DNA of 26,428 nucleotides from the IMG/VR virus record IMGVR_UViG_3300030451_000678, positions 2,139 to 28,566 of that record. One strand, written 5' to 3'. This document shows positions 2,686 to 5,544 of this stretch, piece after piece. Position 1 is the stretch's first letter. Each line of letters starts with the position of its first letter. The position numbers and the translations under genes were made by a program. The DNA is from a virus. The notes beneath the pieces were generated by a model that saw nothing but the letters and a program-made list of their open reading frames with translations, made no database searches and was not told the origin of the DNA.

Positions 2686-3291
2686 ATGCAAGTAAAAGAA
2701 GTAGATATAAATAAAATAATTCCTTATCATAATAATCCAAGAAAAAACCAAGCAGTAAATAAAGTAGCAAGTTCTATAAGTGAGTATGGATTTCAACAAC
2801 CTATAGTAGTAGATAAAAATATGGTTGTTATAGTAGGGCATACAAGATTATTAGCATCAAAAAAATTAGGTTTGAAAAAAGTTCCAATTGCAATCGCAAA
2901 TTTATCAAAAAGTCAAGCAAAAGCTTATAGAATTGCTGATAATAGAACAAATGAGGACAGTACTTGGGATATAGATTTATTAAAAGGCGAATTATCAGAT
3001 TTAAATGGTTTATTAGACAATACTGGTTTTGAGGACAGTGAGTTAGATAAAATGCTTGATAAAAATTCTCAAGAAGAAGACCCAGAAATAATATTTACAG
3101 AAGAAGTTGGCGAACAGCATAACTATGTAATTTTGTATTTTGAAAATGATTTAGATTGGATTTCAGCACAAACACATTTCAATTTAAAAACAGTACATTC
3201 AAAAAGAAGTACTGGAAAGCCCTGGGCAAAGGGAATAGGTAGAGTAGTGAATGGAGGAAAGTATTTAACAAATCTAAATAAGATAACATAA
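2686..3291 (+). CDS. ParB/Srx-like nuclease-domain protein
   Basis: 201 residues. Residues 1-100 are a ParB N-terminal-type domain: VDINKIIPYHNNPRKN, SISEYGFQQPIVVD, the box II motif IVGHTRLLASKKLG (GHTR 51-54), then SKSQAKAYRIADNRTNE. This version is the one often fused to phage DNA methyltransferases, but no methyltransferase is attached. Instead there is a short C-terminal module (about 135-201; EEVGEQHNYVILYFENDLDW, later KGIGRVVNGGKYL). ParB-fold domains of this kind bind DNA and some bind or cleave nucleotides. Its stop overlaps the ATG of the glycosyltransferase gene (TAATG at 3289-3293), which suggests joint function, perhaps in DNA modification. Confidence 0.8.
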   Translation: MQVKEVDINKIIPYHNNPRKNQAVNKVASSISEYGFQQPIVVDKNMVVIVGHTRLLASKKLGLKKVPIAIANLSKSQAKAYRIADNRTNEDSTWDIDLLKGELSDLNGLLDNTGFEDSELDKMLDKNSQEEDPEIIFTEEVGEQHNYVILYFENDLDWISAQTHFNLKTVHSKRSTGKPWAKGIGRVVNGGKYLTNLNKIT

Positions 3292-4022
3292 TGAGTAATA
3301 TAAAATTTTATTCACCATCTTATAAAAGAGCAGATACATCAATAACTCAAGATTATTTACCTTATTGCAAATATGTTGTAGCTGAATTTGAAGCAGAGGA
3401 TTATAAAAAAAATAAAAAAGATATTTGGGTAGTTCCTAATAATGCACAAGGGTCAGTCAGTAAAATAAGAAATTATATTTTAGATAATAGTAAATCAAAG
3501 AAAATAGTTATGCTTGATGATGATATGAGTTGCATAGGAAGATGGCAAAATCAAAAAGTAAAAAAATTAAATTCTGATGAGGTTCTGGAGTTTTGTGAAA
3601 ATGCTTTTAATATTTGTGATGAGTTAGGAATAAAGTATTGGGGAATGAACTTGAACTGCGATAAGGGAGCATATAGAGAATATACCCCTTTTAGTTTTAC
3701 CAGTACAATATTAGGACCTTTTCAAGCGTTTAATAATTTAGATTTAAGATATTCGGAAGATTTACCATTAAAAGAGGATTATGATTTATCTTTACAAGTT
3801 CTTAATAAGTATAGAAGGACATTACGATTTAATGCTTATCATTATTATGTAAAACAACAAACAAATACAGGCGGTTGTGCAAACTACAGAACTTTGGATT
3901 ATGAAAAAAAACAATTCAAATTATTTCAAAAAAAATGGGGAAAGAAAATTGTTCAAGAAGACAAAAGAAGTGTTGGATATGATATTAACCCTATAGTTAT
4001 AGTGCCTATAAAGGGGGTATAA
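3291..4022 (+). CDS. TET-associated-type glycosyltransferase (TAGT-like, GT-A fold)
   Basis: 243 residues. FYSPSYKRADT at the N-terminus, NNAQGSVSKIRNYI (about 50-63), the DxD-type metal site VMLDDDMS (D76-D78), a GMN strand near 119, GPFQAFNNLDLRYSEDLPL and KEDYDLSLQVL (161-170) with the acidic pair expected near the active site, and a HYYVKQQTNTGG segment. These match the GT-A-fold phage glycosyltransferases known as TET-associated glycosyltransferases, which are thought to add sugars to hydroxymethylated bases in phage DNA. No TET/JBP oxidase or hydroxymethyltransferase gene is seen in this window, so the acceptor is uncertain. It overlaps both neighbours by one base (TAATG). Confidence 0.75.
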   Translation: MSNIKFYSPSYKRADTSITQDYLPYCKYVVAEFEAEDYKKNKKDIWVVPNNAQGSVSKIRNYILDNSKSKKIVMLDDDMSCIGRWQNQKVKKLNSDEVLEFCENAFNICDELGIKYWGMNLNCDKGAYREYTPFSFTSTILGPFQAFNNLDLRYSEDLPLKEDYDLSLQVLNKYRRTLRFNAYHYYVKQQTNTGGCANYRTLDYEKKQFKLFQKKWGKKIVQEDKRSVGYDINPIVIVPIKGV

Positions 4023-4327
4023 TGGCAAGACCTAAAAAATATAATATAGATACAAAACAAGTAGAAAAACTTGCATCTTTAGGGTGTACAAATACTGAAA
4101 TGGGTGATTTCTTCGGTTGTAGTCCTGATCTATTAGAAAAGAGTTATTCGGAATTTCTGATAAAAGGGAGGGCAACCCAACGTATTCGATTGCGACAGTT
4201 ACAATGGAAGTCTGCAGAACGTGGAAATGTAACAATGCAAATCTTTTTAGGAAAGAATATGCTTGGACAACAAGATAGGTTAGAGGAGAACCAAATAGAG
4301 GAACCTTTGGTTTGGACAAATGATTAA
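4022..4327 (+). CDS. terS: Terminase small subunit-like protein
   Basis: 101 residues immediately before the large terminase gene, overlapping it by one base (TAATG). ARPKKYNIDTKQVEKLASLG, CTNTEMGDFFGCSPDLLEKS is a helix-turn-helix (about 13-45), and the C-terminal half (RATQRIRLRQLQWKSAERGN, VTMQIFLGKNMLGQQDRLEE) is the pattern seen in many phage small-terminase-type proteins, where it helps oligomerise and contact the large subunit. Role: recognises viral DNA to start packaging. No strong Shine-Dalgarno site; the upstream AAGGGGGTATA may suffice along with coupling to the glycosyltransferase gene. Confidence 0.8.
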   Translation: MARPKKYNIDTKQVEKLASLGCTNTEMGDFFGCSPDLLEKSYSEFLIKGRATQRIRLRQLQWKSAERGNVTMQIFLGKNMLGQQDRLEENQIEEPLVWTND

Positions 4328-5544
4328 TGCCACTAACTAAACCCCAGAAAAAAGTTATAAGTTCAAAAGCTAGATTTAGAGTTTTAATAACTGGCAGAAG
4401 ATTTGGAAAAACTTATTTAGCAATAAATGAGATCGCTAAATTTTCAAGCCAACCAAATAAAAGAGTTTGGTATGTAGCTCCAAGTTATAGACAAGCAAAG
4501 GCGATATGTTGGACAGTCTTAAAAGAAAAGTTAATTGCTCATAAATGGGTCAAGTCAATAAATCATAGTGATTTAACAATAACATTAAGAAATAATACTC
4601 AAATAACTTTAAGAGGAAGTGATAATGAAAATTCCTTACGAGGTGTTGGGTTGGATTTTTTAGTACTTGATGAATTTTCAGATATATATAAACAAGCTTG
4701 GTTTGAAGTATTACGACCAACTTTATCAGATACAAAAGGACACGCTTTTTTTTGCGGTAGTCCAAGAGGTTTCGGTAATTGGTCTTACGAACTGTTCAAA
4801 ATGGGAGAAACAAATAAAGATTGGGAAAGTTTCAAATATACGACATTAGAAGGACAGCAAGTAAGTGAAGAAGAAATTGAACAAGCAAAACAAGATCTTG
4901 ATTTGAGAACATTTCAGCAAGAGTATGAAGCAACTTTTGTAAATTATTCAGGAATGATATACTATAATTTTAGTAGGGATAAAAACATAATAGAAAAATT
5001 TAAAAATAATAGTTTGTTTTTACATATAGGATTAGACTTCAACGTTGACCCAATGTGTGCTGTCGTAACAGTAATTGAAAACAATATTGTAATTGTAGTA
5101 GATGAAATACAAATTTATTCTTCTAATACAAATGAAATGTGTGAAGAAATTAGAAATAGATATAAACATCAAAATATAATTATTTATCCAGACCCAAGTG
5201 CAAGACAAAGAAAAACATCAGCTGGCGGACTTACAGATTTGGCGATATTAAAAAACTTTGGTTTTGATGTAAGATGCAAGAATACTGCACCTTTGGTAAG
5301 AGATAGGATAAATGCAGTAAATGCTAAATTGAAAAATGTTGCTGGAAAAAGTACTTTATTTTTTTTAAATGGTTGCAAAAATGTAATAAAAAGTATAGAA
5401 AGACAGATATACAAAGAAGGAACTCATATACCAGATAAGGATAGTGGGTACGATCATTTTAATGATGCTTTGGGTTACTTAATAGAATATAACTATCCTA
5501 TAAGAAGAAACTTTGTACCAACCGAACCAAAGAGGTGGAGCTAA
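4327..5544 (+). CDS. terL: Terminase large subunit (packaging ATPase-nuclease)
   Basis: 405 residues, normal length. ATPase domain: Walker A LITGRRFGKT (20-29), a VWYVAPSYRQAK strand, Walker B FLVLDE (111-116) with the catalytic Glu, and the coupling motif CGSPRG (143-148). RNase H-like nuclease domain: GLDFNVDP with D237, YPDPSA with D289, and HFNDALGY with D380, the acidic metal cluster. It pumps DNA into the prohead through the portal and cuts the concatemer. It begins in a TAATG overlap with the small subunit and is followed with no gap by the portal gene (TAAATG). One of the surest calls in the window. Confidence 0.96.
   Translation: MPLTKPQKKVISSKARFRVLITGRRFGKTYLAINEIAKFSSQPNKRVWYVAPSYRQAKAICWTVLKEKLIAHKWVKSINHSDLTITLRNNTQITLRGSDNENSLRGVGLDFLVLDEFSDIYKQAWFEVLRPTLSDTKGHAFFCGSPRGFGNWSYELFKMGETNKDWESFKYTTLEGQQVSEEEIEQAKQDLDLRTFQQEYEATFVNYSGMIYYNFSRDKNIIEKFKNNSLFLHIGLDFNVDPMCAVVTVIENNIVIVVDEIQIYSSNTNEMCEEIRNRYKHQNIIIYPDPSARQRKTSAGGLTDLAILKNFGFDVRCKNTAPLVRDRINAVNAKLKNVAGKSTLFFLNGCKNVIKSIERQIYKEGTHIPDKDSGYDHFNDALGYLIEYNYPIRRNFVPTEPKRWS

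Follow-up and report, generated by a model that had tools for sequence, protein, structure and literature searches.

A ParB-domain protein and a TAGT-family glycosyltransferase as a candidate DNA-glycosylation unit in front of phage terminase genes

Two coupled genes before the terminase

The window analysed here, a stretch of 26,428 nt, sits inside a 28,566-base IMG/VR virus record (IMGVR_UViG_3300030451_000678) that is probably a fragment. On its plus strand, an open reading frame for a ParB protein (PF02195; positions 2686–3291) is followed by a gene for a TAGT-family GT-A glycosyltransferase (PF20691; 3291–4022) and by the genes for the small (TerS; 4022–4327; phrog_309, E 9e-7) and large (TerL; 4327–5544; PF03237/PF04466) terminase subunits. 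Upstream lies a gene for a DUF1376 replication-type protein (Pfam; 1388–2224) that is common to sister phages and, together with the terminase genes on the right, delimits the slot occupied by the pair. Adjoining genes share single bases at positions 3291 (ParB/TAGT), 4022 (TAGT/TerS) and 4327 (TerS/TerL), the first two of which had been pointed out in the initial annotation.

The ParB protein comprises an N-terminal domain (residues 1–134; 2686–3087, plus strand) and a C-terminal module of about 65 residues (residues 135–201; 3088–3291, plus strand) that we termed Cmod. A Pfam search gave ParB_N (PF02195, residues 2–86, E 1e-9) as the only match, with no helix-turn-helix (HTH, parS-binding) domain of the kind found in partition ParBs after it. 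Comparison of the protein model with PDB folds returned CTP/CDP-bound ParB structures, including the CTP-analogue-bound Myxococcus xanthus ParB (Z 14.8, 90 residues, 2.0 Å), and according to this model the N-terminal domain has a ParB/sulfiredoxin fold. The window ParB thus shares the CTPase-type ParB_N fold with partition ParBs but lacks their HTH domain, and its GxRR box reads GHTR at the position where partition ParBs carry a GERR-type box. The distinct C-terminal module proposed earlier proved to be a conserved block: when the first 14 sequences, a diverse set, were aligned, 12 columns were invariant. Confidence in the model is low over this module (pLDDT about 50–75), and no PDB match covered it.

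The glycosyltransferase scored 57.4 bits against the TAGT family profile PF20691 (cut-off 27.5), a family that reportedly owes its name to Iyer et al. in 2013, and its PHROGs match was 'beta-glucosyl-HMC-alpha-glucosyltransferase' (1e-20). A PDB sequence search yielded nothing useful. The AlphaFold2 model (pLDDT 90.1) matched GT-A folds in the PDB with Z up to 14.7, and the best matches in BFVD, the nearest viral folds, were TAGT or beta-glucosyl-HMC-alpha-glucosyltransferases. Residues 76–78 form a DDD motif (3516–3524, plus strand), a DxD-type metal/nucleotide-sugar site that is invariant in 34 aligned TAGT homologues.

Pairing and co-variation of Cmod and TAGT

To follow the pair, loci were gathered from IMG/VR by scans with the TAGT, the ParB, a TAGT alignment and a tail alignment, supplemented by scans of bacterial genomes, and ParB_N, Cmod and TAGT profiles were run on them. 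Once near-duplicates had been taken out, every distinct ParB-Cmod gene (120/120) had a TAGT gene just downstream, and every distinct core TAGT gene whose upstream sequence was long enough (132/132) was preceded by a ParB-Cmod gene. The co-occurrence of this tail with TAGT, which the initial annotation had suggested checking, is therefore perfect both ways. As judged from gene neighbourhoods, the pairing is far beyond chance and the two are obligate partners. Loci with an apparently unpaired ParB or TAGT were traced to start-codon, overlap or window-size artefacts, or to an inserted gene (L034, L175, L204 and others).

Of 121 arrangements that were counted, 30 have two TAGT genes in tandem. Some loci have further genes inserted between ParB and TAGT, among them genes for FkbM-type or other SAM methyltransferases and, between ParB-Cmod and TAGT at L211:6233–7111, a radical SAM/SPASM gene.

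The pair was found in IMG/VR contigs, in prophage-like loci of bacterial genomes from several phyla and in one Streptococcus prophage. A search with Cmod only across 50,697 phage records gave a single match, the Streptococcus prophage Javan291, which is also the only phage record with a TAGT of >40% identity and has the same arrangement before its terminase. This arrangement recurred in each of the ten loci from bacterial genomes (Bacteroides, Treponema, Victivallaceae, Phascolarctobacterium and others). Because the pair is also located ahead of terminases that are unrelated to those of the window, it moves between phage lineages.

More distant forms occur in isolated Microbacterium phages of the Quhwah type, in which ParB and a TAGT-like glycosyltransferase are accompanied by a UDP-glucose dehydrogenase. 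In the complete genome of one of them, Jayden, whose cluster is described as lytic (PMC7302621), the ParB has a divergent Cmod-like tail with a profile match too weak to count, and the TAGT-like transferase is matched by the TAGT profile built here, not by Pfam. The UDP-glucose dehydrogenase gene of Jayden adjoins the pair (L251:9612–10397), hinting at a glucuronic acid donor. Gingerbug has ParB followed by TAGT (58.7 bits). The TAGT of Ld17 has no annotated ParB neighbour, and ParB coupling is therefore not universal in the TAGT family.

Similarities between loci were compared across 109 loci in a Mantel-type test. Cmod had the highest median pairwise identity (0.63), ahead of TAGT (0.47) and ParB_N (0.31). 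Loci with similar TAGTs tended to have similar Cmods (Spearman rho 0.46; 0/500 permutations), whereas ParB_N similarity hardly followed that of TAGT (rho 0.12), and Cmod followed its own ParB_N weakly (rho 0.20). Because Cmod tracks TAGT and ParB_N hardly does, the natural unit is Cmod plus TAGT on exchangeable ParB domains. At the sequence level, Cmod and TAGT are thus shown to evolve together, with the ParB domain (residues 1–134) acting as an interchangeable front end.

Exchange of modification enzymes in the slot

Sister phages that share the flanks of the window (DUF1376 protein, TerS and TerL) carry the same ParB domain in the same slot with various partners. The DUF1376 proteins are 47–88% and the small terminases mostly 64–96% identical among these phages, and their ParB_N domains, fused or coupled to other DNA modifiers, are 57–86% identical to that of the window. 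In many loci ParB is fused to an N6_N4 methyltransferase (L035, L039, L041, L064 and many more); elsewhere it stands with Mom (L054; PF25680, 2e-50), with TET/JBP (L044 and L089; PF12851) or with a 295-residue TAGT of another clade (L048 and L053). The slot of L071 holds, in a row, a TET, a TAGT-like transferase and a methyltransferase that is FkbM-like by sequence likeness; genes for FkbM-type methyltransferases are also present in Cmod-TAGT loci. A quick TAGT tree, in which the placement of long rows is unsure, set the TET-linked and 295-residue TAGTs apart from the Cmod group. When sister phages were sampled solely through their large terminase, most proved to lack ParB, usually with a slot of <1 kb, and the others hold methyltransferase, Mom, TET or Cmod-TAGT modules.

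Compared with the window, ParB–methyltransferase fusions and ParB–Mom pairs have the same slot and flanks and ParB_N domains that are mostly 54–74% identical, but ParB_N is followed by a fused enzyme or a zinc-ribbon-like tail instead of Cmod, and the enzyme is an amino-methyltransferase or Mom. The TET/JBP–TAGT operons of sister phages (L061, L065 and L071) resemble the window in their position before the terminase, in ParB_N (61–63% identical) and in having a TAGT-like transferase, sometimes with an FkbM-like methyltransferase; they differ in the TET/JBP beside ParB, which the window lacks, in the ParB tail and in the TAGT clade.

Several further occupants of such loci were recorded. The sister-phage slot at L060:3339–4400 has ParB and, after it, a PAPS-reductase-like protein (PF01507), which together may form a sulfur-based DNA-modification unit. 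In L044:5604–8786, ParB, TET/JBP, a glutamine-amidotransferase-like protein, a 326-residue protein and a P-loop kinase-like protein follow one another without interruption ahead of the terminase, probably a longer hypermodification pathway. The ParBs paired with Mom (L054, about 5001–5504) and with a C5-methyltransferase (L104, about 4989–5522) end in a short CxxC zinc-ribbon-like tail, and the type of tail therefore seems matched to the type of enzyme. ParB domains recur in three successive open reading frames at L106:1103–2878, two of them with zinc-ribbon-like tails. At L095:3639–4670, ParB is fused to DUF4417 (Pfam match), and similar sequence lies shortly before the terminase in the Streptococcus prophages Javan23 and Javan386 (L004:4992–6071 and L005:4992–6092). 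These two prophages, suggested as Cmod carriers by tblastn, were rejected, as their ParBs have a long DUF4417-like C terminus and no Cmod match.

Slot exchange is the strongest evidence for DNA modification by the window pair. Because its slot in sister phages holds methyltransferases, Mom and TET on the same ParB domain, the pair is itself best read as a DNA-modification unit, an assignment that exchange of enzymes in the slot strongly supports. The reading put forward in the initial annotation, that ParB and the transferase act together on DNA, is supported both by their perfect co-occurrence and by a slot shared with undoubted DNA-modifying enzymes. With a ParB_N gene that overlaps the gene of its enzyme and a slot in which enzymes are exchanged, the pair has the features of a ParB-coupled modification module, in which the TAGT would modify the base.

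Acceptor base and proposed mechanism

The initial annotation had remarked that no TET/JBP or hydroxymethylase is visible in the window and had proposed a search of the rest of the genome, including other base-modifying genes. No match was found in the 28,566-base record, which is incomplete: neither a phage-encoded TET/JBP, as in TET/JBP–TAGT pathways, nor a thymidylate-synthase-family dCMP hydroxymethylase, as in T4-type hmC glucosylation, nor any other base-modifying family was recognized. Nor did TET/JBP, C5-methylase or thymidylate-synthase families match in any of the Cmod-TAGT virus records searched, most of which are fragments: a first set of 23, to which the window record and the complete prophage Javan291 belong, and 24 further ones. 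The thymidylate-synthase-type profile PF00303 matched control genomes and none of the 23, 24 or 14 (sister-set) records. TET likewise gave no match in eight bacterial genomes. The TET profile PF12851 matched 10/10 TET-carrying sister loci, and the TET search therefore works. Among 27 proteins of Javan291 scanned with Pfam, the majority from early genes, no other base-modifying family appeared. These searches suggest that the acceptor is not made by TET/JBP or a known dCMP/dUMP hydroxymethylase and would be either canonical or the product of an unrecognized enzyme.

The best-known relative is the T6/T2 TAGT (beta-glucosyl-HMC-alpha-glucosyltransferase), which has the same PF20691 family, GT-A fold and phage DNA context. 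The T6 enzyme glucosylates phage DNA by adding a second glucose to glucosyl-hmC, and the substrate of known TAGTs is a base that has been hydroxymethylated or glucosylated beforehand (PMC13216743, PMC13390438). In T6 the glucosyl-hmC is made by a dCMP hydroxymethylase and an alpha-glucosyltransferase, neither of which is recognized in the window, whereas the window TAGT has an obligate ParB-Cmod partner. Solitary TAGTs, likewise without an alpha- or beta-glucosyltransferase or another known DNA glucosyltransferase, were counted in a 2026 study in 288 of 753 phage genomes, and their function was left open (PMC13216743); here a partner protein dedicated to the TAGT and a slot are identified. ParB-domain genes are also frequent neighbours of the CmoX/CmoA/CmoY system for cytosine carboxymethylation, another phage base hypermodification, which uses C5-carboxymethyltransferase and ligase chemistry and no TAGT; the role of ParB there was left unexplained (PMC12783734). 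A literature search, which did not reach the founding 2013 TAGT paper, found no paper describing ParB-Cmod with TAGT.

We consider it likely that the pair works as a single DNA-glycosylation unit, present as an optional cassette directly ahead of the terminase genes, and that its acceptor arises without TET/JBP or a known hydroxymethylase. Two accounts of that acceptor divide this explanation between them and do not oppose it. The base may be hydroxymethylated or hydroxylated by an enzyme encoded elsewhere, whether by the host, by an unlinked gene absent from the fragments or by a family unknown to Pfam. The hydroxymethyl-derived acceptors of all biochemically known TAGTs (PMC13216743, PMC13390438), the fragmentary 28.6-kb window record and the many small phage genes without a Pfam match are in keeping with this account; against it stand the empty searches of the 23 and 24 records and of the early genes of Javan291, the lack of a TET or thymidylate synthase (ThyA) match in the remote, complete Jayden genome, and the fact that where sister phages use a TET it sits inside the same slot, so that we hold this account to be tenable but somewhat short of an even chance. 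Less probable still is direct glycosylation of unmodified bases, for example at the exocyclic amine of C or A, by a complete, self-sufficient one-step system of ParB-Cmod and TAGT in which Cmod is essential to the active complex. Nothing else able to act on a base is recognized in Javan291, other occupants of the slot (amino-methyltransferases and Mom) act in one step on canonical bases, and Cmod is more conserved than TAGT, in line with a role in catalysis or in presenting the base. The case is nevertheless one from the absence of recognized genes, and we know of no DNA glycosyltransferase that acts on a canonical base.

A different explanation would make a virion protein or the host surface the target of the transferase, with no tie to the neighbouring ParB. 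It draws on the PDB fold matches, which are GT-A enzymes of a generic kind with polymers and proteins as substrates, such as TarP and GalNAc-T. It is hard to reconcile with the exceptionless pairing with ParB-Cmod, the co-variation with Cmod, the slot shared with DNA methyltransferases, Mom and TET, and the closest viral folds, which are TAGTs and HMC glucosyltransferases, and we regard it as very improbable.

In the DNA-glycosylation unit that we favour, the ParB domain, perhaps acting as a clamp that depends on a nucleotide, would bring the enzyme onto the phage DNA, and Cmod would dock the TAGT, help to present the acceptor and possibly complete the transferase; as the model gives little confidence for Cmod, we only infer this docking. 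The TAGT would take its sugar from a nucleotide-sugar of the host and attach it to a base in the phage DNA, probably late, when the DNA is packaged. Where a locus has additional genes, such as a second TAGT or an FkbM-type methyltransferase, these may extend or methylate the sugar, and the modified DNA would be shielded from host nucleases or restriction.

Judged from genome comparisons, the pair is real, widespread and well supported as a ParB-coupled phage DNA-modification unit. One large TAGT group now has a named obligate partner, occurs without recognizable TET or hydroxymethylase genes and is tied to a genomic slot in which one ParB domain is combined with different DNA-modifying enzymes from phage to phage. 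Direct glycosylation of an unmodified base, if true, would have no known precedent in DNA chemistry. A distant form of the pair is found in isolated phages, and two questions become testable: the role of the ParB domain in phage DNA modification, and DNA glycosylation without a hydroxymethylated base.
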